A DNA stretch of 39,942 nucleotides from NCBI GenBank assembly GCA_017472225.1, contig JAFUQS010000073.1:1-39942 (forward strand), given 5' to 3'. Position 1 is the first letter of the stretch. Every line of letters starts with the position of its first letter. Positions 10,363 through 39,942 of this stretch are shown in pieces. The notes beneath the pieces are model-generated. The model was given only the letters and a program-made list of their open reading frames with translations, searched no databases and was not told the DNA's origin. The stretch is from Clostridia bacterium. Its GTDB lineage: Bacteria > Bacillota > Clostridia > Oscillospirales > Acutalibacteraceae. The translations under genes and the position numbers were made by a program.

Positions 10363-11796
10363 ATGCACGATACCATAAACCCAATTTCTCCTGAGTTACT
10401 CGCCGTTATGAGCGAGAAAATTGAAAAAAAGAGCCGGATTGACCTTGACCAGTTCTGGAAATACGGAGTCAAGAGGGGACTCAGAAATCCTGACGGCACC
10501 GGTGTTATGGCAGGACTGACTAATATCTGCTCGGTTGAGGGCTATTATATTGAAGACGGTGAAAGAGTTCCGAAGCAAGGTGTTCTCAAATACCGTGGTG
10601 TTAACATCAATGATATTGTTGAAGCTTGTGAAAAAGAAAACCGCTTCGGCTATGAAGAGGTTGCATATCTTTTGCTTTTCGGTTCACTCCCCACAAGGGA
10701 ACAGGTTGAGCTTTTCAAGGGCATCCTCGGAACCTGCCGTGTTTTGCCGGATACATACATTGAAGATGTTCTTATGAAAAACGCTTCAATGGACATTATG
10801 AATAAGCTTGCAAGATGCATACTTATTTCCTATTCTTTCGACGAAAATCCTGATGATATTTCGGTGGAAAATGTTCTTCGTCAATCAGTTCAGGTTATTG
10901 CTCAGATGCCTGTTATGATGTGCTATGCCTATCAGGTAAAAAGAATGAAATATTATGGTAAGAGCATGTATTTTCATCCTGAAAAAAAGGAGCTTTCAAC
11001 TGCCGAAACTATTCTTCGTTCAATTCGTTCAGACAGAAAATATACCGATGAAGAGGCAAAGCTTCTTGATATCTGCCTTATTCTTCATGCGGAGCATGGC
11101 GGCGGTAATAACTCAACCTTCACAACAAGAGTTCTCACTTCAAGCGGAACGGATACATATTCAGCTTTTGCGGGCTCAATCGGTTCACTTAAGGGTTCAC
11201 GTCATGGCGGAGCCAATATCAAGGTCAGCCATATGATAAACGATATCAAAGAGCACGTTGAAGATGTAACAGATGAAAAGCAGATTTCTGATTATCTTGA
11301 GAAAATAATCAGAAAAGAAGCGGGGGATCGCAGTGGCCTTGTTTACGGTATGGGTCATGCTGTTTACACTATTTCTGACCCCCGAGCTGTTATTCTTAAG
11401 AAAAAAGCAAGGGAATTTGCATATAAAAACGGCTTTGAAAAGGATTTTGAACTTATAAATTCAATCGAAAAGCTCACTCCCGAGGTATTCAGAAAGGTTA
11501 AAGGCAAAAACAAGATCATGTGCGCCAATGTTGACCTTTATTCAGGCCTTATTTATAAAATGCTCGGTATTCCCGAAGACCTGTATACTCCTATTTTTGC
11601 AACTGCAAGAATTGCGGGCTGGTCAGCTCACAGACTTGAGGAGCTTATCTCGGGCGGTAAGATCATCAGACCTGCATATAAGAATATTGCCGTTCAGAAA
11701 AAATATGTTCCTATTGATGAGAGAATCGAAAATTATAAAAGCCTTGAGCACTATGTGCCTTCCGACCAAAGGGTGTATACGGAGGATGAAATATGA
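10363..11796 (+). CDS. gltA: Citrate synthase
   Basis: Citrate synthase condenses oxaloacetate with acetyl-CoA to citrate. In fermentative clostridia it usually feeds 2-oxoglutarate and glutamate synthesis rather than a full cycle. The catalytic triad of the family is visible: H281 in SRHGGAN, H332 in GMGHAVY, and D391 in ANVDLYSG; LHAEHGGGNNSTF (241-253) is the substrate-binding stretch. The 477-residue length is longer than the classical enzyme of about 430, owing to an N-terminal extension of some 40 residues, as in a group of clostridial homologues. The start has GGGAGGTCGC upstream. Its stop overlaps the next ATG (ATGA), so it is coupled to the unknown membrane protein. A 2-methylcitrate synthase is less likely without prp neighbours. 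Confidence 0.92.
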   Translation: MHDTINPISPELLAVMSEKIEKKSRIDLDQFWKYGVKRGLRNPDGTGVMAGLTNICSVEGYYIEDGERVPKQGVLKYRGVNINDIVEACEKENRFGYEEVAYLLLFGSLPTREQVELFKGILGTCRVLPDTYIEDVLMKNASMDIMNKLARCILISYSFDENPDDISVENVLRQSVQVIAQMPVMMCYAYQVKRMKYYGKSMYFHPEKKELSTAETILRSIRSDRKYTDEEAKLLDICLILHAEHGGGNNSTFTTRVLTSSGTDTYSAFAGSIGSLKGSRHGGANIKVSHMINDIKEHVEDVTDEKQISDYLEKIIRKEAGDRSGLVYGMGHAVYTISDPRAVILKKKAREFAYKNGFEKDFELINSIEKLTPEVFRKVKGKNKIMCANVDLYSGLIYKMLGIPEDLYTPIFATARIAGWSAHRLEELISGGKIIRPAYKNIAVQKKYVPIDERIENYKSLEHYVPSDQRVYTEDEI

Positions 11797-31550: not shown

Positions 31551-33971
31551 ATGGCAGTTAATTTAATTCACAAGGCTATGCCTACCGTGGCTCTCAGGGG
31601 AATAGTCATTTTCCCGGGTACCAGATTCCATTTTGATGTGGGAAGAAAGAAATCAGTTTCTGCAATCAAGGCGGCAATGAATGATAATCAGAAGCTTTTC
31701 CTTGTTGCTCAGAAGGATGTTCAGGTTGAAAATCCCGAAAGCTGTGATTTGTTTGACACCGGTGTTATAGCAACAATAAGGCAGGTTATTAAATCACCCG
31801 ATGCCGATTACATGAGAGTGGTTGTTGAAGGTGAATGCAGGGCACAGATAAGTGAAATTCTTCAGGCATCACCGTATTTTATCTGTGATGTCAAGGAAAG
31901 AAAAAGCACAAGCCTTAAAAATACAGACGATGCATATATAAGCGCTCTTTTAAGAAAGGTAAAGGATGCTTTTGATGAGTTCATCCATTTATCAACAGGG
32001 GATTTTGAGGATGCGCTGAAGATTTTTTATTCTGATTCTCCAGATACAGTTGCCGATACGGTCGCTTCAAGCACAATTATAAAATATGAAGACAGGCAGA
32101 TGCTTCTCAAGGAGCTGAATCCTGTTCTCAGACTCGAAAAGCTTTATTCCTTGCTTTTGAAGGAAAATGAAATTCTTCGAATCGAGGGAAATATCGAAAA
32201 TAAGGTAAATGCTCAGATGGAAAAGAACCAAAGAGAGTATTATCTTAAAGAAAAAATCAAGACAATTGCCGATGAACTTGGCGAGGGCGAAGATATACTC
32301 AGCGAGGTTCAGAATTATCGCTTGAAAATCAAAGAGCTTCAATGCAATGAACAGATAAGAAAAAAACTCACTGCCGAGTGCGATAAGCTCTCTAAAATGA
32401 CGGGCAATTCCGCAGATGCAACAATAACAAGGGCTTACCTCGATTCAGCTTTGGCTTTGCCCTTCGGCAAATATACCGTTGACAGATATGATTTGCAGCT
32501 TGCGAGAAAAACTCTTGACAGGGATCATTACGGACTTAAAAAGGTTAAAGAGCGATTCATCGAAATGCTTGCCGTTAAAGAAAGAACGGAAGATGTCAAA
32601 GGCCAGATTATCTGCCTTGTAGGTCCTCCGGGTATCGGTAAAACCTCGATTGTGCGCTCTGTTGCTGAGGCTATGGACAGAAAGTATGTCCGTATGTCAT
32701 TGGGCGGTGTAAGCGATGAAGCTGAAATCAGAGGTCACAGAAAAACCTATGTCGGAGCAATGCCCGGAAGAATTGTGAATGCACTTACTCAGGCGGGCTC
32801 CTTCAATCCCATAATTCTGCTTGACGAAATTGATAAGCTCGGAAAGGATTATAAGGGTGACCCTGCCGCAGCTCTTCTTGAGGTTCTTGACCCTGAGCAG
32901 AATAATACTTTCAGAGATAACTACATTGAATTTCCGATTGATCTCAGCAAGGCTTTGTTCATTACAACAGCCAACGATGCTTCTTCGATTCCGGGGCCGT
33001 TGTATGACCGAATGGAGGTTATAGAGCTTACGAGCTATACCCCTGAAGAAAAGTTTATGATTGCAAAAAATCATCTCACCAAAAAGCAGATAAAAATGCA
33101 TGGTCTCAACGGCAGTCTTCTCCGATTTTCCGATGAAGGTCTCAGATATATAATCGAAAATTATACAAAAGAGGCCGGTGTCAGAAGGCTCGAGCAGACA
33201 ATCGGTGCTGTTTGCCGCAAATGTGTTGTAAAGCTGTCTGATGAAAATGCGAAAAGAATCACAGTTACAAAAGCACTTGTCAGATCGCTTCTCGGACCTG
33301 AAAAATACAGGAATGATTCGATACTCAAGGAAGATCTCGTCGGTGTTGTAAACGGTCTTGCATGGACAAGTGTCGGCGGTGAAATTTTGCAGGTTGAGGC
33401 TGTTACCATGGATGGCGATGGTAAGCTTGAGCTTACAGGCTCGCTCGGTGATGTTATGAAGGAATCGGCAAAGGCCGCCTTGAGCTATATCAGAAGTCTT
33501 AGAGAAAAATATAACATTGATTATGATTTGTTTACCAAAAAGAACATCCATATCCATGTTCCTCAGGGTGCTGTTCCTAAGGACGGACCTTCTGCAGGTG
33601 TAACAATATCAACAGCCCTCCTTTCTGTGCTTACCGGCAGAAAGGTTGACAGAAATCTGGCAATGACCGGTGAAGTAACTTTAACGGGCAGAGTTCTTCC
33701 TATCGGAGGTCTTAAGGAAAAATCCATGGCAGCCTATAAAGCCGGAATCAAAAAGATAATTATTCCTCAGGATAATTACAGCGACTTATGGGAAATTGAC
33801 GATGTTGTTAAGGATAATGTTGAATTTATACCCGTAACAAGCCTTGATGAAGTTTTCAGGGTCGCTTTAAAGGAAAGGGAAGATATGAGCACAATTTCCG
33901 AGTCCTCGGTCAAATTTGAGCCTCATGATATAATAATCAGCAACAGGAGGAAAAAAGATGAGATTCGATAA
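31551..33971 (+). CDS. lon: ATP-dependent protease Lon
   Basis: Lon is a cytoplasmic hexameric AAA+ serine protease that degrades misfolded and regulatory proteins. The N-terminal LON substrate domain (about 10-200), a coiled region, the AAA+ domain with Walker A GPPGIGKT (about 357-364) and Walker B IILLDEIDKLG, and the protease domain are in order. The Ser-Lys dyad is S681 in KDGPSAGVT and a Lys in GGLKEKSMAA near 724. Length of 806 is normal. The start has AAAGGAATG upstream. Its end overlaps engB by 14 bases, an arrangement also common in Bacillus-type genomes (lon-ysxC), so translation is coupled. Confidence 0.97.
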   Translation: MAVNLIHKAMPTVALRGIVIFPGTRFHFDVGRKKSVSAIKAAMNDNQKLFLVAQKDVQVENPESCDLFDTGVIATIRQVIKSPDADYMRVVVEGECRAQISEILQASPYFICDVKERKSTSLKNTDDAYISALLRKVKDAFDEFIHLSTGDFEDALKIFYSDSPDTVADTVASSTIIKYEDRQMLLKELNPVLRLEKLYSLLLKENEILRIEGNIENKVNAQMEKNQREYYLKEKIKTIADELGEGEDILSEVQNYRLKIKELQCNEQIRKKLTAECDKLSKMTGNSADATITRAYLDSALALPFGKYTVDRYDLQLARKTLDRDHYGLKKVKERFIEMLAVKERTEDVKGQIICLVGPPGIGKTSIVRSVAEAMDRKYVRMSLGGVSDEAEIRGHRKTYVGAMPGRIVNALTQAGSFNPIILLDEIDKLGKDYKGDPAAALLEVLDPEQNNTFRDNYIEFPIDLSKALFITTANDASSIPGPLYDRMEVIELTSYTPEEKFMIAKNHLTKKQIKMHGLNGSLLRFSDEGLRYIIENYTKEAGVRRLEQTIGAVCRKCVVKLSDENAKRITVTKALVRSLLGPEKYRNDSILKEDLVGVVNGLAWTSVGGEILQVEAVTMDGDGKLELTGSLGDVMKESAKAALSYIRSLREKYNIDYDLFTKKNIHIHVPQGAVPKDGPSAGVTISTALLSVLTGRKVDRNLAMTGEVTLTGRVLPIGGLKEKSMAAYKAGIKKIIIPQDNYSDLWEIDDVVKDNVEFIPVTSLDEVFRVALKEREDMSTISESSVKFEPHDIIISNRRKKDEIR

Positions 33972-34542
33972 TGCAGTTTTTGAAACCTCTTTCGGCACCT
34001 CCGGGCAGCTTAAAACATCTGATTTGCCTGAGATTGCTTTTTCAGGCAGGTCAAATGTGGGAAAAAGCTCACTTCTTAATCGTCTTCTCGGTAGGAAATC
34101 TCTCGCAAGAGTCAGCTCAATGCCGGGAAAAACGGTTACAATTAACTTTTTTAAGCTTGATTCATGCCGTTTTGTTGACCTGCCCGGTTACGGTTATGCT
34201 AAGGTTTCACATGATGAAAAAATCCGTTGGGCTGACCTTATGGAGGGGTATTTCTCTTCGGGAAGAAATCTTAAGCTTGTAGTTCAGCTTATTGATATGC
34301 GCCATGCCCCTTCGCAGCAGGATATCGATATGATTGAATATATGACAGCTAATGAAATACCCTTCATTGTTGCACTCACCAAGTGTGATAAACTCAATAA
34401 AAGTGAGAGAATGAAGCAGCTTTCTGAAATCTGCGGAATTCTCACAGCATATGGTAGTATCAGTGTTGTACCTTTTTCGGCAACAAAAGGGGAGGGCGTT
34501 GAAGAATTAAGAGGTCTTATTGCCAAAGCTCTTGAAAAATGA
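33958..34542 (+). CDS. engB: Ribosome biogenesis GTP-binding protein EngB/YsxC
   Basis: EngB (YsxC/YihA) is an essential GTPase needed for late assembly of the 50S subunit. G1 GRSNVGKSS (about 30-38), G3 DLPGYG (about 75-80), G4 TKCDK (about 140-144) and the SATKGEGVEEL G5 region are visible in 194 residues, the normal size. The ribosome site AGGAGG at 33948-33953 lies within lon, and the start overlaps the lon stop by 14 bases. Confidence 0.96.
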   Translation: MRFDNAVFETSFGTSGQLKTSDLPEIAFSGRSNVGKSSLLNRLLGRKSLARVSSMPGKTVTINFFKLDSCRFVDLPGYGYAKVSHDEKIRWADLMEGYFSSGRNLKLVVQLIDMRHAPSQQDIDMIEYMTANEIPFIVALTKCDKLNKSERMKQLSEICGILTAYGSISVVPFSATKGEGVEELRGLIAKALEK

Positions 34543-34553
34543 GGTGAGAGAAT

Positions 34554-35126
34554 TTGAAAAAACTATTTTCAGAAAAAATGAAGGCAAACCCGATAATAGC
34601 CGGAGTCAAGGATATCAATAACCTTGAAGATGCTTTGAACTCGGAATGTGAAATCATATTTCTCCTTTGCGGAACAATTTTCAATCTCAAGGAAATTGTA
34701 CAGAAGGCAAAGGATAAAAATAAGATAATTTTCATTCATGTTGATTTGGTTGACGGCTTTTCCAAGGATGCGACCGCCCTGAAATACATCAATGATGAAA
34801 TCAGACCCGACGGAATAATTTCCACAAAAAACAGTCAGCTCAAGGTTGCAAAATCTCTTGGTATGCTGACCGTACAGAGGATTTTCATCATTGATTCACT
34901 TTCAATTGAAACAGCCGTCAAGGCATCTCAGATGATAAATCCCGATGCTATTGAAATAATGCCGGGGATTATGCCGAGAATTACCAAGCAGCTCAGTTCG
35001 AGTCTTGATGTGCCTGTTATTGTGGGCGGACTTATAAGCGAAAAAGAAGAAGTTTTAAACGCAATTGAAAGCGGAGCACTTGGTGTTTCCACATCAGCAA
35101 AAACTATCTGGGAGATGAAATTATGA
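34554..35126 (+). CDS. glpP: Glycerol-3-phosphate-responsive antiterminator GlpP
   Basis: GlpP binds leader mRNA in the presence of glycerol 3-phosphate and prevents termination ahead of glp genes in Bacillus subtilis. This 190-residue protein keeps the family pattern: IIAGVKDINNLEDAL, IIFLLCGTIFNLKEI, IFIHVDLVDGFSKD, IEIMPGIMPRIT and PVIVGGLISEKEEV, a (beta/alpha)-barrel-like fold. The start is TTG at 34554 with GAGGTGAGA upstream. No glp catabolic genes lie in the window, so its targets are elsewhere or it has another role. It follows engB by 11 bases and overlaps the next gene by four. Confidence 0.9.
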   Translation: MKKLFSEKMKANPIIAGVKDINNLEDALNSECEIIFLLCGTIFNLKEIVQKAKDKNKIIFIHVDLVDGFSKDATALKYINDEIRPDGIISTKNSQLKVAKSLGMLTVQRIFIIDSLSIETAVKASQMINPDAIEIMPGIMPRITKQLSSSLDVPVIVGGLISEKEEVLNAIESGALGVSTSAKTIWEMKL

Positions 35127-35680
35127 TAAACATCAGAAAGTATGAACCTAAAGATAAAGAAAATTTAGTTAAAGTTCTTTATGAAACATCATCATTGCCG
35201 ATTGAAACCGAAGCACAAAGAAAGTTTCTTGAGCTTATGTTTAATGATTATTACACAGAAACAGAGCCTGATTGCTGTTTTGTTGCCGCAAATGAAGATG
35301 ATGAGGCTGTGGGCTACATAATTTGTGCAAGGGATTTTGACACATATGCCAAGAATTTCAAGAATTTTTATCTGCCTGAAATTAAAGAACTCGGCTTCGG
35401 CTTTTACACAATGGCATTAGGTGAAATTTTTATTCACAAGCTCATTTCAAAAAAGTATCCCGCACATCTGCATATCGATATTCTTGATGTTTGTCAGGGT
35501 CAGGGTGTCGGAACAAGACTTGTCAGCGCACTTTCGGAATATCTCGGCTCAACGGGAACTCACGGCCTTATGCTTTCCTGTGGAATGAAGAACACAAAAG
35601 CTGTTAAATTTTACAAGAAAAATAACTTTAAAATTATCATGAATTTTATGGGAAACTGTCTCATGGGAAAAGAAGTATAA
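35123..35680 (+). CDS. GNAT-family N-acetyltransferase
   Basis: This 185-residue protein has the GNAT fold: an N-terminal NIRKYEPKDKENLVKVLYE start, a central acidic insertion, and the acetyl-CoA loop VCQGQGVGTRLVSALSEYL (Q/R-x-x-G-x-G/A) at about residues 126-144. The C-terminal segment ends GMKNTKAVKFYKKNNFK, the usual beta-6/7 region. Its ATG overlaps the glpP stop (ATGA). Substrate cannot be read from sequence. It resembles the group acting on small metabolites more than the RimI type, but that is a weak judgement. Confidence 0.85.
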   Translation: MINIRKYEPKDKENLVKVLYETSSLPIETEAQRKFLELMFNDYYTETEPDCCFVAANEDDEAVGYIICARDFDTYAKNFKNFYLPEIKELGFGFYTMALGEIFIHKLISKKYPAHLHIDILDVCQGQGVGTRLVSALSEYLGSTGTHGLMLSCGMKNTKAVKFYKKNNFKIIMNFMGNCLMGKEV

Positions 35681-35738
35681 TATTTTGTATAAAGCGCTTA
35701 ATTCGGTCCATAATATTCACAAAAGGAGTTGACTTAAG

Positions 35739-35954
35739 ATGCTTGATAAAATTGCTTTAATTCTCACTATCATCGGTGGTATCAACTGGGGCCTTATCGG
35801 TATTTTCCAATTTGATCTGGTTGCATGGATTTTCGGTGGACAAAGTGCTATTATCTCGAGAATCATTTACACCCTTGTTGCATTAGGCGCCATTTGGTGC
35901 ATTTCCCTGCTTTTCGGTGAGAGAAAAGTTGTCAATGACGCTGAAAAGGAATAA
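35739..35954 (+). CDS. DUF378-domain small membrane protein
   Basis: This 71-residue protein has two membrane helices (about 5-25 and 40-60) and the family pattern LTIIGGINWGLIGIFQFDLV followed by SRIIYTLVALGAIW. It belongs to DUF378 (YuzA type), whose function is unknown. The ribosome site AAAGGAG precedes the ATG. A terminator follows it, and the mobile-element boundary begins about 190 bases later, so it is the last chromosomal gene on this side. Confidence 0.9.
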   Translation: MLDKIALILTIIGGINWGLIGIFQFDLVAWIFGGQSAIISRIIYTLVALGAIWCISLLFGERKVVNDAEKE

Positions 35955-35981
35955 TAAAACTAAAAAGCGACTTGCTTGATT

Positions 35982-36027
35982 CCTCCTATGATAGATGCTT
36001 AATTCTACCATAGGAGGTTTCTTTTTA
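35982..36027 (+). terminator. Terminator after the DUF378 gene
   Basis: CCTCCTATG at 35982-35990 pairs perfectly with CATAGGAGG at 36009-36017, followed by TTTCTTTTTA. Confidence 0.85.
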
Positions 36028-36103
36028 TAGTATCTGCTTTCTCAACCTGCTGCACACTTCCGAAGCAAGTGCGATGGCAATAGGAACTGCCTCGGGATAA
36101 AAG

Positions 36104-36138
36104 AAAAAACTCCTTGAAGGATAAAACCTTCAAGGAGT
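36104..36138 (-). terminator. Terminator downstream of the tRNA-Ser-like sequence
   Basis: ACTCCTTGAAGG (36109-36120) pairs perfectly with CCTTCAAGGAGT (36127-36138). On the minus strand it is followed by six T residues, so it terminates transcription leaving the tRNA-like sequence. It is the only other thing in the otherwise gene-free stretch 36028-36377 besides the tRNA-like att site and the TGCGAGA repeats. Confidence 0.85.
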
Positions 36139-36141
36139 CCT

Positions 36142-36198
36142 TGGCGGAGACGGCGAGATTCGAACTCGCGGGGGATTGCTCCCTAACTGATTTCGAGC
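36142..36198 (-). other. Candidate att site (left end of integrated element)
   Basis: This is the part matching a tRNA-Ser 3' half, CCA to the anticodon loop. The chromosomal terminator and genes lie to its left, and element-type genes to its right, so it should be one attachment site. The intact tRNA-Ser and the second copy are expected at the other end of the element, outside the window. Confidence 0.55.
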
Positions 36199-36230
36199 AA
36201 AAGGCAGTATCTACCGCACCGCCCCTCTCC
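36142..36230 (-). tRNA. tRNA-Ser(CGA)-like sequence; probable displaced 3' half at an attachment site
   Basis: Reading the minus strand, everything from the anticodon loop onward is canonical: loop CTCGAAA (anticodon CGA), variable arm GGG/CCC, T arm GCGAG-TTCGAAT-CTCGC, acceptor strand CGTCTCC, G and encoded CCA. The 5' half is not: the anticodon stem is TTTTG against TCAGT, position 8 is G, and the acceptor GGAGAGG mismatches once. The total of 89 bases is a normal tRNA-Ser length. The clean break at the anticodon loop is what a tyrosine recombinase leaves when an element integrates into a tRNA gene and displaces its 3' half. A decayed tRNA pseudogene is the alternative. A functional tRNA is unlikely. 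Confidence 0.6.
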
Positions 36231-36263
36231 GTCCCTGAAAACTGCATCTGATACGCCACATTC

Positions 36264-36321
36264 TGCGAGATTTTGCAAAACCCACGAATTTTTGCGAGAA
36301 ATTTGCGAGATAGATGCGAGA
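36264..36321. repeat. Four TGCGAGA direct repeats beside the att site
   Basis: TGCGAGA occurs at 36264-36270, 36293-36299, 36304-36310 and 36315-36321. The last three are spaced by exactly 11 bases, about one helical turn. Such iterated short sites beside an att core are typical arm-type sites for integrase or sites for excisionase. Confidence 0.55.
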
Positions 36322-36377
36322 AAAAAGTAAAAACTCCTTTGGATATTCTCGGGTGAATAAACATAAGGAGAATAAGA

Positions 36378-36635
36378 ATGAACCAAGAAAAACAAAGAGA
36401 AGCATATCAAAAGATGCTCAAAAAATGTCCCGATATCTTAACACCAATGAAAGCGGTTCGCTGGTCGCCCATCGGTAAAAACACCATCTACGCCGCACTC
36501 AAAAATGGTGAGATAGAATCCTATACATACAAAGGTGGTTACATCTTCACGAAGGACGCCTTCATAGATTACCTCGTCAAGACCACCAATGATAAAGGCA
36601 GAGGATATACCATCCGAGGTGATAAGAAATGTTGA
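36378..36635 (+). CDS. Small excisionase-like helix-turn-helix protein
   Basis: This 85-residue basic protein has a winged-helix-type pattern: LTPMKAVRWSPIGKNTIYAA (helix-turn-helix, about 21-40), LKNGEIESYTYKG (wing) and IFTKDAFIDYLVKTT. It resembles MerR-like excisionase/AlpA HTH proteins, which bend att DNA and control direction of recombination. The ribosome site AAGGAG lies seven bases upstream. It sits directly beside the candidate att site and the TGCGAGA repeats, which fits such a role. It overlaps the next gene by seven bases. No integrase gene is in the window. Confidence 0.7.
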   Translation: MNQEKQREAYQKMLKKCPDILTPMKAVRWSPIGKNTIYAALKNGEIESYTYKGGYIFTKDAFIDYLVKTTNDKGRGYTIRGDKKC

Positions 36636-37183
36636 GCAGCTTACCGCAAGTGCTATCAGGTGAACAAGTGCGTTGCGCCCTGCATATCAGCAAACGCAAG
36701 TGCGCCTGGATACTCAACAACGGCTTCATCAAATGCCAGAACACCGGCAAAAGAACAAGAAAATATACCGTGCTGAAGGAAGACCTGCTCACTTACATAG
36801 AGGACTCGACCAAACACCCCGAAAAATATGTCACACCATACGCCGAGTTCTCAACCACAAAGTATGGGAACACACGCAAACCCCGACCACGCAAAACAGG
36901 GTTTCCTTCCTCTCTGCCGTTATCCTTCCGCCCGTGGCTCAAACAGGAATTCGAAACCGTTCCCGATGCACTTACCGTACCGCAGGTCATCGCCACCACA
37001 GGCTACACCGATAACACCGTCAACCGCTGGCTCCGCCAAGGCCACCTAAAGTCCGTCCAAACACAAACTACAAAAATAATCCCAAAGATATGGCTCATCG
37101 ATTTCTACTGCTCCTACGCCTACACCATAACAAATATGTCCGATAAGCACATCAAGCTTATGCAAAAATTCTTTAACAAATAA
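36629..37183 (+). CDS. Protein with two excisionase-like HTH domains
   Basis: This 184-residue protein appears to contain two similar DNA-binding modules. The first (about 9-57) reads VLSGEQVRCALHISKRKCAW, then a wing NGFIKCQNTGKRTRKYTV and EDLLTYIE. The second (about 113-155) reads ALTVPQVIATTGYTDNTVN, then RWLRQGHLKSVQ and a IWLIDFY end. A Pro/Arg/Lys-rich linker joins them. The pattern suggests binding to two half-sites. The base composition is richer in C than in neighbouring genes, a sign of separate origin. It overlaps the small HTH gene by seven bases and is closed by a terminator. Function is inferred only from fold-like pattern and position. Confidence 0.65.
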   Translation: MLSSLPQVLSGEQVRCALHISKRKCAWILNNGFIKCQNTGKRTRKYTVLKEDLLTYIEDSTKHPEKYVTPYAEFSTTKYGNTRKPRPRKTGFPSSLPLSFRPWLKQEFETVPDALTVPQVIATTGYTDNTVNRWLRQGHLKSVQTQTTKIIPKIWLIDFYCSYAYTITNMSDKHIKLMQKFFNK

Positions 37184-37186
37184 CAC

Positions 37187-37240
37187 AAAACCTCGGCTAA
37201 AATGAGTAAATCTCATATTTTAGCCGAGGTTTTATTTTTG
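37187..37240 (+). terminator. Strong terminator after the two HTH genes
   Basis: AAAACCTCGGCTAAAATGAG (37187-37206) pairs with CTCATATTTTAGCCGAGGTTTT (37212-37233) with one bulge, followed by ATTTTTG. It divides the att-proximal module from the cargo. Confidence 0.9.
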
Positions 37241-37309
37241 TGAAACTTGTTTAATTAAGATAAAAAACTGAAATTTAAGAAAAAATGCAGTTAACGCTAT
37301 ATTTATTTG

Positions 37310-37338
37310 TTGCAAAAATTTAAGCATGGTGATATAAT
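37310..37338 (+). promoter_or_regulatory. Sigma-A promoter of the XRE/membrane protein unit
   Basis: TTGCAA at 37310-37315 and perfect TATAAT at 37333-37338 have a 17-base spacer. The ribosome site GAGGTG follows at 37365-37370. Confidence 0.65.
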
Positions 37339-37375
37339 AAATTTGTCGAATTATAATTTTTTATGAGGTGTACTT

Positions 37376-37582
37376 ATGGCTGTTAGTTACAAGAAACTAT
37401 GGAAGCTCTTAATTGACCACGATATGAAGAAAAAAGATCTTGCTAAGGTTGCAGATATCAGTAATTATACTATCACAAAAATGAGCAAAGGTGAAAATGT
37501 TACTGTTGATACCCTTGGCAAAATTTGTGCTGCCTTAAATTGCGGTGTGGATGATATTATGGAATTCATCCCCGAGAAATAA
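37376..37582 (+). CDS. XRE-family (Cro/C1-type) transcriptional regulator
   Basis: This 68-residue protein is a single Cro/C1 helix-turn-helix domain of the short 'YvaO/HTH_26' kind: LWKLLIDHDMKKKDLAKVAD, then ISNYTITKMSKGENVTVDTL and ICAALNCGVDDIMEF. Such small regulators often control restriction-modification, toxin-antitoxin or element genes. It has its own promoter and a GAGGTG ribosome site five bases upstream. The membrane protein gene starts 14 bases after its stop, so it probably regulates that unit. Confidence 0.88.
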   Translation: MAVSYKKLWKLLIDHDMKKKDLAKVADISNYTITKMSKGENVTVDTLGKICAALNCGVDDIMEFIPEK

Positions 37583-37596
37583 AGTGAGGTCCTACC

Positions 37597-38160
37597 ATGC
37601 TTGAAAAAATATTTGATCTTATAAAAAATAACTTTAAGAACCCAAAATTATACGTTTTTCTATTAATTATATTGTTAACGGCCTTAGTACTATTTCCTTA
37701 TATTGACGCCAATTTCTTTTACTATAACCGAGTAAATGACCGTATTGATATTTTAACAAAAGTTTCTGAAATCAATATTGAGCAAATACAAGAAAATGAA
37801 ATATTGCACAAAGAATACAATAGTATTCTCGCCGAAATTGATAAACAATCTACCGGAAGTGTAGGCAGTGTTTTCATAAAAGAATCTAACAATACAGTTA
37901 ATTTGATCAAGTTTATAACTGGTGGCTCGCTTGTATGGATTATAGCATTGCTATGCTTTTTCATTAGGGGGTTTAAAAATTGGGGATATCGTATATTGGG
38001 ATTCGTGTTTTTTGCAGGGCTTGGCTGTGTGTTTGGGCTTGCGGCTAAAGCAATACCTACTATTGCAAACCCTATGGTAAATTATATTGGTTTTCCAGTT
38101 TTACTCATAATTGTAATTGCGTTGCTTGCTACTGTAGGAAAAAATAAGAAAAGTGTTTAG
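37597..38160 (+). CDS. Unknown four-helix membrane protein
   Basis: I do not recognise this 187-residue protein. It has a membrane helix at about 18-38, an extended polar and partly coiled loop (39-100) rich in Glu and Ile, and three more helices (about 104-124, 130-150, 158-180), ending in a Lys-rich tail. The ribosome site GTGAGG lies upstream. It follows an XRE regulator by 14 bases and precedes a small coiled-coil membrane protein by 10, and the three seem to be one transcript. Membrane proteins paired with a small regulator on an element can be toxins, immunity or defence effectors; none of these is shown. Confidence 0.7.
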   Translation: MLEKIFDLIKNNFKNPKLYVFLLIILLTALVLFPYIDANFFYYNRVNDRIDILTKVSEINIEQIQENEILHKEYNSILAEIDKQSTGSVGSVFIKESNNTVNLIKFITGGSLVWIIALLCFFIRGFKNWGYRILGFVFFAGLGCVFGLAAKAIPTIANPMVNYIGFPVLLIIVIALLATVGKNKKSV

Positions 38161-38170
38161 GGGTTAAATA

Positions 38171-38602
38171 ATGATAACAGAGTTTATAATTGAAGTTTTG
38201 TCTTCGCTTATGTCTGGTTTGACGGGTATTAGCGATACTTTTATTGAACTGTTCTTTAGAAAAAAACAGATATTAAAGGAAGACAAAAAGAAACAAGAAA
38301 CATTATCAAAAAAACTCGAAAAACTGACCGAGAATCTTCACGAAACATCTGTGCTAATGGCGGAAATAGAAACGGAATTTCAACAGCAAAAAGAATTAGC
38401 CGAAAAATGGAGCAAAGAGGCTGAAACTTCGCAAATCATAGCATCCATGAGTGAAAAAGAAGTTGAAGCGGTCACTAAGATTTTTGGTGGTATACTTAAA
38501 GAAGATGAAAAGAAATCAAGTAAAAAATCGTGGTGGTGGAATCTTTTCTTTTGCATTCTTGGCATTATTGGTGGTTATTTAGTATCAAAATATCTGCTAT
38601 AG
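38171..38602 (+). CDS. Unknown coiled-coil protein with C-terminal membrane anchor
   Basis: This 143-residue protein is tail-anchored. Residues 1-28 are mildly hydrophobic, 29-85 form a long charged coiled coil (with EKLTENLHETSVLMAEIETE), then a linker ending KSSKKSWWW and a membrane helix at about 121-140. It could bring an oligomeric coiled coil to the membrane next to the four-helix protein encoded upstream. The ribosome site AGGGG lies upstream. No known family was recognised. It is the last gene before a separate promoterless-looking gap and the restriction-like gene. Confidence 0.7.
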   Translation: MITEFIIEVLSSLMSGLTGISDTFIELFFRKKQILKEDKKKQETLSKKLEKLTENLHETSVLMAEIETEFQQQKELAEKWSKEAETSQIIASMSEKEVEAVTKIFGGILKEDEKKSSKKSWWWNLFFCILGIIGGYLVSKYLL

Positions 38603-38655
38603 TCCGTATTATGGGACATCAAATTTGTTAGAATTATTATATCATGGTGAGGATT

Positions 38656-39633
38656 ATGGAAGAAAATCGAATTGATATAAAAGAAAATTTTATATATAAG
38701 CTCGATAATGAACTGCTGGAGATATTATTAAAAGATCGCTCCTCAAAGAAAAACATTATTTGGGCTACAGATAACTATGCACATAAAGGCTTCGGTTATC
38801 AATTTTCAGATGAGATAACTATTATGGCGATTACTGGTCATAAAGGCGGCGTAGTAAAGCCGAGAACCGAGAAATCCAAAAAAGAGCAAGCAGACCGTAT
38901 CCGTGACAAAGCGGAAGTGTTCACCCCTTCTTGGATATGTAATAAACAGAATAATCTCGTTGATAACGCATGGTTTGGAACGGATTTTGTGTTCAACGAA
39001 GAAGTCGATAAGACTTGGACTGCAACCACCGAGCCGATTGTGTTTCCTACCGCAACAGGCAAGACATGGCAAGATTATATTAACGATGTTCGCTTAGAAA
39101 TTACTTGCGGCGAAGCACCATATCTTGTCAGCCGTTATGATACTGTAAGTGGATATATGATAGAACTTTCACAGCGCATCGGATTGCTGGATCGAAAACT
39201 GCGCGTTGTAAGTGAGAACACGCATACAGAGGAAGAATGGTTAAAATGGGCAATCAAATCCTTCCAAAACACCTATGGCTATGATTGGCAAGGCGATAAT
39301 GTTCTTCTGGCAAGAGAGAACCTGCTCTTTACCTTTATCGACTACTACAAAGCAAAGTTTGATAAAGAGCCGACTATTGATATTCTCAGAAAAATTGCCG
39401 ATATACTTTCGTGGAATATATGGCAGATGGATGGCTTGAAATTTGTTATCCCCGAAAGCTGTAAAGAAGTAGAAGAAGGCCAGCTTACGCTATTTGATAT
39501 GAATACCGAAAAGCAGCCATGTCCCGGATGTGCCAAGAACGATCCTTATGCACACACAGGAATTTACTGTATCATTAAGGATTGGAAGGCAAACAAGAAG
39601 GTCACCTTCGTGTCTCTCCTAAAAAAAGATTGA
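38656..39633 (+). CDS. 'Restriction endonuclease subunit M'-like protein
   Basis: This 325-residue protein shows a segment KAEVFTPSWICNKQNN like the FTP region that precedes the SAM-binding domain in N6-adenine methylases, followed by conserved stretches LEITCGEAPYLVSRYD, RIGLLDRKLRVV, YGYDWQGDNVLLARENLL and ILSWNIWQMDGL. From memory these belong to a family annotated as restriction subunit M in gut Firmicutes. No NPPY/DPPY catalytic motif is visible, so methylase activity is doubtful. A CPGCAKND Cys pair lies near the end. I chose the ATG at 38656 with GGTGAGG just upstream rather than 38644. The next gene starts 13 bases later, so the two are paired. A defence role is inference. Confidence 0.65.
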   Translation: MEENRIDIKENFIYKLDNELLEILLKDRSSKKNIIWATDNYAHKGFGYQFSDEITIMAITGHKGGVVKPRTEKSKKEQADRIRDKAEVFTPSWICNKQNNLVDNAWFGTDFVFNEEVDKTWTATTEPIVFPTATGKTWQDYINDVRLEITCGEAPYLVSRYDTVSGYMIELSQRIGLLDRKLRVVSENTHTEEEWLKWAIKSFQNTYGYDWQGDNVLLARENLLFTFIDYYKAKFDKEPTIDILRKIADILSWNIWQMDGLKFVIPESCKEVEEGQLTLFDMNTEKQPCPGCAKNDPYAHTGIYCIIKDWKANKKVTFVSLLKKD

Positions 39634-39646
39634 TTGGAGCATTATA

Positions 39647-39942
39647 ATGAAAGATTTAAGCATACTTGACAGCTTAATAACAGGGCGTGTAGAACCTCAT
39701 ATATATGCTTTTACTACGAATACGATCCCGAACTATCTGAAGGTTGGCGATACCTACCGTCCCGTGTCCAAGCGACTCAGCGAATGGCGAGAGTATTTCC
39801 CAAATCTTGAGCAGAAGTTTGAAGGAAGCGCGAGAATCACAGACGATGTGTATTTCCGTGACTTTGCAGTTAATTACTTCTTAGAATAGGAAAAACACAT
39901 AATCCGTCTTCAAGAAACTGAACTCCCCGAAGTAGTATACAA
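39647..39942 (+). pseudogene. GIY-YIG/T5orf172-like N-terminal domain with in-frame TAG, cut by window edge
   Basis: The frame opens at 39647 (GGAG nine bases upstream) and encodes 80 residues with HIYAFTTNTIPNYLKVGDTY, SKRLSEWREYFPNL and DDVYFRDFAVNYFLE. This matches the start of T5orf172/GIY-YIG domains that in such loci lead into large helicase proteins. A TAG at 39887-39889 stops it. The same frame then continues open for 17 codons to the window edge (EKHIIRLQETELPEVVY), and this still reads like the family. So it may be an amber-mutated gene, a sequencing error, or, less likely, a readthrough case. It follows the subunit-M-like gene by 13 bases. Confidence 0.6.

Follow-up and report, generated by a model that had tools for sequence, protein, structure and literature searches.

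The window analysed here is the 39,942-nucleotide contig JAFUQS010000073.1 of a Clostridia bacterium, taken at its full length (contig C29 of a draft assembly, GCA_017472225.1, of 2.33 Mb in 111 contigs); its right end very probably holds the integrase-distal (P-arm) end of a mobilizable-type integrative element that sits in the tRNA-Ser(CGA) gene of an earlier element, and follows the plan of its relatives, in which the target tRNA gene is replaced rather than rebuilt. In those relatives the two junctions, the pairing of the split stems, a complete tRNA-Ser(CGA) gene, a tyrosine integrase, a relaxase (two relatives), restriction-modification cargo (three relatives) and nested copies are observed; the end of the window's element that lies past the contig end would share this plan, replacement tRNA included. 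A broader proposal, held with modest confidence, is that a non-phage mobilizable class widespread in gut Clostridia destroys and replaces tRNA-Ser(CGA) and offers the new gene as a landing site, which leads to stacks of restriction-carrying elements and leaves many species with a mobile-derived gene as their only copy. Compared genomes are labelled G and loci L (L151 lies in G107 and L260 in G329); G000 is the window's own assembly.

In the proposed mechanism a tyrosine integrase, together with excisionase-like proteins, would join the element, in circular form, to a tRNA-Ser(CGA) gene by recombination at CTCGAAA, which in the tRNA is the anticodon loop. The gene hit in the window would have belonged to an earlier element of the same family, from which the 3' half of the tRNA, its terminator and 12 integrase codons are left beside the DUF378 gene. 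The target tRNA would be broken, its 5' half orphaned at the integrase end and its 3' half displaced to the excisionase end, and the element's own complete tRNA-Ser(CGA), about 180-190 bp inside the integrase end, would take over. This element-borne tRNA would then be the landing site of the next element, giving nested copies; with the anticodon loop fixed by decoding, the site could hardly escape. The element tRNA would be expressed and perhaps needed by the cell, and the element presumably moves by mobilization.

The split tRNA-Ser(CGA) gene of the window

The features at the junction are as follows.

36062..36100, plus strand: end of an integrase gene, last 12 codons and stop, remnant of the earlier element (from the integrase ends of relatives)
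36105..36142, minus strand: terminator of the earlier element's tRNA-Ser(CGA), 16 pairs and a T run; also present after the complete tRNA genes of G107 and G334
36142..36197, minus strand: 3' half of tRNA-Ser(CGA), anticodon loop to CCA; identical text in a complete tRNA-Ser(CGA) gene of G107 (contig C32)
36191..36197, minus strand: 7-bp core CTCGAAA, common to the split tRNA and the element, the crossover site (from the conservation switch in 10 loci)
36203..36223, minus strand: hairpin followed by TTTT, terminator-like, at the element edge, where a "non-pairing 5' half" had first been annotated; shorter stems within it are listed as terminator-like

Read on the minus strand from 36197 to 36142, the half runs CTCGAAATCAGTTAGGG...CGTCTCCGCCA and comprises the anticodon loop CTCGAAA (anticodon CGA), the variable arm, the T arm, the acceptor strand and CCA; chance resemblance is ruled out because the identical 3' half sits inside complete tRNA-Ser(CGA) genes of G107 and G334. 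The 5' side does not pair with it, as the anticodon stem would oppose TTTTG to TCAGT with three pairs of five; ARAGORN calls no tRNA anywhere in the window and Rfam gives no window match at gathering score.

The first-pass annotation, made from the letters of the window, had described a minus-strand 3' half of a tRNA-Ser from the anticodon loop to CCA that retains its own terminator and abuts a non-pairing 5' side, and the sequence reads exactly so, with the strong terminator at 36142-36105; the half is 56 nt long and not 57 (36142-36198), as base 36198 already belongs to the element. Its excisionase-like helix-turn-helix genes and cargo of differing composition to the right are recovered as HTH_17, Cro/C1 and restriction-modification genes with a composition shift at 36-38 kb, and the element does continue past the window, the contig stopping at 39942 before the integrase end comes into view. 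Tyrosine-recombinase integration at the anticodon loop is likewise upheld, the window being the integrase-distal end and related tyrosine integrases lying at the opposite end of relatives. The ordinary chromosomal genes to the left are present from lon to DUF378, though they do not adjoin the half: 36063-36145 is the remnant of the earlier element.

The position of the crossover is given by conservation. In ten loci picked for sharing the window's P arm, 40 of 45 columns on the P side, all seven of the core and 7 of 45 on the tRNA side are invariant, in an ungapped count across variable arms that differ in length; because conservation drops there across loci, the switch from element to target is placed at CTCGAAA, the seven bases of the anticodon loop. 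Seven different tRNA-side sequences occur among ten genomes with a near-identical 45-nt arm, and the sequence after CCA differs among hosts, with one terminator shared by L174, L181 and L183. The stem text of the hairpin at 36203..36223 is also found in the nine other loci of this set.

The tail EASAMAIGTASG before the stop codon at 36062..36100 matches the integrase ends ..KASAMAIGSALG of G107 and ..KASALAIGTALG of G139, each followed by a stop. By DNA comparison the stretch 36063-36145 agrees at 91.6% over 83 nt (E 3e-31) with the G107 element at its integrase side; the match begins within the integrase gene, and the same terminator follows the integrase tail in the window and in the G107 element; from this match it follows that the window's tRNA half came from an earlier element, by now mostly deleted. 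The join between host and remnant near 36027-36062 is known from this contig alone. An older integrase-tail remnant with a tRNA 3'-end fragment is also seen just outside the displaced half of G042 (L109, about 10370-10623), an arrangement that resembles the window.

Orphan half, displaced half and element-borne tRNA in relatives

The complete plan is contained in one contig in G139, G329 and G334, with 19.7, 20.0 and 23.5 kb between cores, respectively; the displaced 3' half and the orphan 5' half lie at opposite element ends, about 5-25 kb apart. A compact case is found in Ruminococcus flavefaciens MA2007 (L195, 9566-14285), where orphan, displaced half, integrase and complete tRNA are all present and the cores lie about 4.7 kb from each other. 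A complete tRNA-Ser(CGA) gene stands beside the integrase in G139, G329, G334, G200 and others, and is out of view in the window; the right end of the G139 element features an AAA_25 ATPase, NikA/MobC, a MobA/VirD2-type relaxase, an HTH_17 protein and the tyrosine integrase, followed by the complete tRNA-Ser(CGA). Past the complete tRNA the orphan 5' half ends at CTCGAAA and unrelated sequence follows; orphan core and complete-tRNA core are 168-200 bp apart in nearly all cases. An intact tRNA gene rebuilt downstream with the identical 3' half had first been expected, and this expectation is not borne out in relatives, which leave the 5' half orphaned beside a separate, complete, element-borne tRNA.

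The stems of the split and the element-borne tRNA often differ. In G334 the orphan GCAGACG faces the displaced CGTCTGC, and the element tRNA has GGAGACG/CGTCTCC; in G329 the split tRNA has GGAGAGT/ACTCTCC and CAGCA/TGCTG, and the element tRNA GGAGACG/CGTCTCC and GCTGA/TCAGT. Nine genomes were chosen for having one orphan and one displaced half, and in each of them orphan and displaced half pair at 12/12 stem positions and the element tRNA with itself at 12/12 (G-U pairs allowed; acceptor positions of the 32-nt type set by hand). The two tRNAs differ in seven (G329, G200, G063, G072, G139, G334 and L194), where at least one crossed combination gives 6-11 of 12 (12 and 10 in L194); in G107 and L195 they cannot be told apart and the pairing is uninformative. 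G183, which also fits the selection and was added afterwards, gives 11/12 for orphan with displaced half, 12/12 for the element tRNA, and 10 and 11 for the crossed pairs. When the two outer flanks are joined at the core, ARAGORN calls a tRNA-Ser(CGA) in nine of nine genomes (the joins of G072, G063 and G107 use two contigs); tested apart, none of 12 junctions from six genomes yields an ARAGORN tRNA. Because of these pairing and joining results, the split gene is taken to be the target and the complete gene to have arrived with the element. Integration therefore does not keep its target intact: in relatives the host tRNA is left unrebuilt around a 7-bp core, and is split and replaced by a complete tRNA of the same isotype that the element carries; the window displays one such junction.

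A search pattern for such 3' halves, whole or displaced, matches in 203 of 300 family genomes, a count in which at least one listed match (G142) is unlike a tRNA; potential hosts are accordingly plentiful. A further tRNA-like text was noticed near several of these genes: a tRNA-Ser 5' piece, GGAGACGTATCGAAGTGG, is followed by a repeat-rich interruption of about 140 bp and then by CATAACGGGGC, which runs into a palindrome, in L151 (G107), L149 (G139), L262 (G334) and L226 (G242). It lies about 400-265 bp before the anticodon loop of the element tRNA in L151, L149 and L262, and about 225-80 bp before its own in L226; similar text follows tRNA-Ser(GCT) in L076, and Rfam gives no match at gathering score in L167, L158 and L262.

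Controls, unoccupied sites and nesting

The association of orphan and integrase was counted across loci. Where a complete tRNA-Ser(CGA) has a related integrase downstream, an orphan 5' half is present in 18 of 20 cases (0-6 mismatches of 40), a ratio that is no population frequency, the loci being partly chosen for carrying the element. In 17 of the 18 the cores are 168-200 bp apart; in the remaining genome, G031, the best match is the farthest of three orphans. Among complete genes with no related integrase within 1.4 kb an orphan is found in 2 of 15, with 9 and 10 mismatches at a loose limit, and among complete genes with a short downstream flank in three of five; shuffled flanks, five for each, never fall below 16 mismatches. 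Left out of the count were rows with less than 500 bp of upstream flank and 5' halves that differ from three reference halves by more than 10 mismatches; one row lost in this way, L260 (G329), does possess an orphan. The automatic label of intact or displaced was wrong for some rows (for example L111, L206, L218, L221 and L223), and was refined for the orphan count.

Unoccupied sites are seen one flank at a time. The flanks of G139, G107 and G334, up to the orphan, match G242 at 74-81% over 227-233 bp; in G242 the tRNA is intact and lacks a related integrase within 1.4 kb. G151, likewise without such an integrase over that distance, agrees at 71% over 992 bp with the upstream flank of G309, an occupied site. 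It also matches, at 73% over 218 bp, the sequence that lies past the displaced half in Oscillibacter valericigenes. A search for an unoccupied site of G334 by way of its left-flank gene returned distant homologs only (at most 43% identical, in 17 of 398 genomes at E<=1e-60).

Several related elements at one attachment locus are found in G264, G201 and G031, and the window has the integrase tail of a second element. In G264 a pair of orphan 5' halves stands at one end and two displaced 3' halves are present; orphans and displaced halves pair at 11-12 of 12. A related integrase follows the 3' half in seven of 46 rows labelled displaced, as expected if a new element had entered the tRNA of an older one. 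The window junction appears, from its sequence, to be of the same nested kind with the older element eroded.

Mobilizable or phage character of the elements

The tyrosine integrase, which lies outside the window, is recognised in G139 by Pfam (1.1e-26), and the integrases of relatives are 38-85% identical. A relaxase of family PF03432 is encoded in G139 (7e-36) and G329 (1.2e-37), and NikA/MobC and AAA_25 are present in both; no conjugation family is found among the scanned open reading frames (ORFs) of G139 and G329, which are part of their ORFs. No relaxase-like ORF start was noted in G334, in a scan that excluded its right end. Restriction-modification genes are a common cargo: type I M, S and R in G139, type IIG in G329, type I M and S in G334, and type II in the window. 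No phage structural family appears in 15 of the 23 listed ORFs of G139 (the other eight are of 240 aa or less) or in 10 ORFs of G329, nor is a phage structural gene present in the approximately 3.7 kb of element visible in the window. By this gene content the elements are probably not temperate phages and look mobilizable, a status as integrative and mobilizable element (IME) that refers to two scanned relatives and a subset of their ORFs.

Weighing of the explanations

An ordinary tRNA island, in which the element carries the 3' half of the tRNA only, the host gene is rebuilt at the integrase end and one half is displaced, is an unlikely account of the locus. The end visible in the window would look exactly the same, anticodon-loop islands are common in Islander according to excerpts of its description (PMC4383910), and no orphan is found in G244 and L209, where integrase and complete tRNA are both present; in the informative genomes, however, the two end pieces pair better with each other than with the element tRNA, and the orphan 5' half lies outside the complete gene in 18 of the 20 integrase-linked cases. 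Joining of unrelated sequences by assembly or binning is very improbable: the assembly is a draft of 111 contigs in which the other end of the element is missing, but the same junction recurs in assemblies whose record titles name sheep, goat, water buffalo and roe deer samples, and the host synteny through DUF378 fits the genus. Still harder to credit is a decayed pseudogene, that is, a host tRNA-Ser whose 5' half mutated in place with no element involved. GGAGAGG does stand at the position of the acceptor strand, 33 nt before the loop, and a D-arm-like hairpin contains GGTAGA; against this, the 5' side is near-invariant in ten genomes whereas the tRNA 3' half varies, and in most loci its distance to the HTH_17 genes is nearly constant (about 430 nt for protein B). 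The pseudogene reading of the 5' side was dropped, as this side is conserved along with the element. A functional tRNA mimic formed by the P arm and the displaced half was also considered and set aside; the acceptor-like text is lost in the distant G139 arm, and the hairpin with TTTT is terminator-like.

Several observations weigh against integration with tRNA replacement as the account of the window. The integrase end of the window's element is out of view, and the window's own assembly provides neither a second copy of the 3' half (similarity search at E<=10 and E<=0.01, and pattern search) nor, at up to three mismatches, a corresponding tRNA 5' half, where the sole match is the tRNA-Ser(UGA) gene, nor a closely related integrase, its only three integrase matches being 25-34% identical to two integrases of the element family. 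The tRNA-Ser(UGA) of this genome should also read UCG codons, and the replacement tRNA may for this reason not be essential; a consensus scan finds no sigma-70-like promoter before the element tRNA of G107. G244 (L129) and L209 have the integrase beside a complete tRNA with no recognisable orphan, and in L200 a displaced half and a complete tRNA are separated by 9.6 kb, and within 1.4 kb there is no orphan and no integrase. Among the genomes compared, both flanks of another's unoccupied site are never found in one genome. In the nested loci the counts of halves are uneven: the outer orphan of G264 pairs at 11/12; in G031 a single displaced half was found for three orphans, and this half lies on a different contig and pairs at 12/12 with two of the three; in G201 two displaced halves stand against three orphans, the inner half pairing at 11-12 and the outer at 8, 9 and 8 of 12, so that the partner of the outer half appears to be missing or lost. 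No tRNA half is present within 2.5 kb upstream of protein B in 10 of 35 loci. Five unannotated "Bacteriophage sp." records of the phage collection encode homologs of protein B (25-35% identity over 85-98% of the protein, E 8e-24 to 5e-10), and some relatives may travel with phages; in IMG/VR and the plasmid collection no relative of protein B is found. The complete element tRNA genes are nevertheless retained with paired stems.

Comparison with known systems

The closest parallel to tRNA replacement is found in phages. According to excerpts of PMC10865867, the actinophages Fionnbharth, LeBron and Gaia display tRNA-dependent lysogeny, with cores of 8-17 bp, a host tRNA that is not rebuilt and a phage tRNA that is required. 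The elements described here share with that system, as there outlined (PMC10865867), the tyrosine integrase, an attB within a host tRNA gene, a short core without rebuilding, a carried tRNA of the same isoacceptor, and putative arm sites on both sides of the core. The actinophages are temperate phages whose tRNA is experimentally required (same excerpts), whereas the present elements have a relaxase and restriction-modification cargo, belong to Clostridia and are known from sequence. Further differences from the excerpted account are the use of tRNA-Ser(CGA), the crossover in the anticodon loop, a tRNA about 180-190 bp from the crossover, nesting in an element-borne tRNA, and a second isoacceptor that should read the same codon. 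By analogy the elements therefore work like tRNA-dependent lysogeny, and they look mobilizable rather than phage.

Mobile elements of other kinds resemble the present ones in part. IME integration, as excerpted in PMC5704250, leaves the target undisrupted, the flanking repeat including one end of the target; with IMEs the elements share a tyrosine integrase, a MobA/VirD2-type relaxase with a MobC-like partner, restriction-modification cargo and accretion at one site, and differ in that the target is split and replaced. Islander islands restore the target from an attP fragment, and sites in the anticodon loop are common among them (PMC4383910, in excerpt); the anticodon-loop crossover, the displaced 3' fragment and the occurrence of arrays are held in common, but here a whole tRNA gene is carried. 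For the prophages or islands at tRNA genes of Sinorhizobium meliloti, a host tRNA gene is reported to be substituted by a foreign one (PMC11476347); substitution is the common feature, and the case differs in being phage-related and from an alphaproteobacterium, with nesting unmentioned in the excerpted text. Among the matches listed from the open-access literature there is no IME or integrative and conjugative element with a whole replacement tRNA.

Replacement "outside of the Actinobacteriophages" was left open in 2024 (PMC10865867, in excerpt); if the present reading is true, it extends from actinophages to relaxase-bearing elements of another phylum. The replacement tRNA would then bind the cell to the element, as deletion of the element would mean loss of the tRNA; dependence of the cell on a mobile tRNA is a testable claim. 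If true, the reading would also explain the stacking of restriction-carrying elements at one tRNA in gut Clostridia. Island finders that expect an intact tRNA plus a single fragment would misinterpret loci of this kind, since intact copy and fragments belong to different genes.

Further features of the window

The host flank and the genes of the element to the right of the junction are listed below.

31551..35954, plus strand: host chromosome with lon, engB/ysxC, glpP-like, GNAT and DUF378 genes (ORFs; DUF378 by Pfam, 2e-27)
36264..36321, plus strand: four TGCGAGA repeats, at 36264, 36293, 36304 and 36315, presumed integrase arm-type sites (comparison of P arms)
36378..36635, plus strand: HTH_17 protein A, 85 aa, excisionase-like (Pfam E 2.8e-4, short of the cut-off)
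36629..37183, plus strand: HTH_17 protein B, excisionase-like, 184 aa (Pfam HTH_17 1.1e-6; PHROG excisionase 1.5e-4)
37376..37582, plus strand: Cro/C1-type regulator (Pfam HTH_26 8e-21; 96% identical in relative L183)
37597..38602, plus strand: two proteins of unknown function, 187 and 143 aa (ORFs; hydrophobic stretches by eye, no convincing family)
38644..39633, plus strand: type II DNA methyltransferase, cargo (PADLOC MTase_II 7e-130)
39647..39889, plus strand: N-terminal part of a type IIG restriction-methylation enzyme with a T5orf172 domain (PADLOC REase_MTase_IIG 2.2e-32; Pfam T5orf172)

On the tRNA-sense strand the repeats of the window arm read TCTCGCA, three of the four at 11-bp spacing. 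Of seven other P arms tested in the subfamily, six have the same four with the same spacing and one (L181) has three of them; the P' arms of G329, G334 and G107 each contain two further copies at 11-bp spacing, and the more distant G139 has no TCTCGCA repeat in either arm. In the lambda model the integrase binds arm-type sites; by this analogy, and because the repeats flank both sides of the core, they are presumed to be such sites.

HTH_17 protein A is 87-96% identical in ten genome_contigs loci and less so in others. Homologs of protein B occur in 45 of 300 family genomes, the window's own included, and in 37 genome_contigs loci, the closest in assemblies titled Clostridia bacterium or Oscillospiraceae bacterium, several of them of ruminant-gut origin. 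In 25 of the 35 loci with enough sequence, a tRNA-Ser(CGA) 3' half that starts at the anticodon loop is found no more than 2.5 kb upstream of the protein B gene. The type IIG match spans positions 9-85 of a 1359-position profile. In its frame, 39647-39942, a stop codon comes after 80 codons, with 53 bases left to the contig end, and the frame is then open to that end, which suggests a disrupted gene or a sequencing error.

In the host flank the DUF378 name comes from Pfam, and the remaining ORFs are those we take to be lon, engB/ysxC, glpP-like and GNAT genes. Among 28 same-genus DUF378 loci, covered for about 1.5 kb on each side, engB is present in 27, GNAT in 25 and glpP in 23, and ARAGORN calls no tRNA-Ser in any of these stretches. 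A terminator-like repeat at 35979-36027, after DUF378 (TTCCTCCTATGATAGATGCTTAATTCTACCATAGGAGG), is found in several same-genus genomes, often near contig ends, and is perhaps shared with the ends of rRNA operons. Elsewhere in the window's own assembly (G000:C23:117072-118477) a tRNA-Pro(CGG) and a tyrosine integrase match, the latter in a frame of 516 aa, are about 0.8 kb apart; this locus is a further candidate tRNA island.

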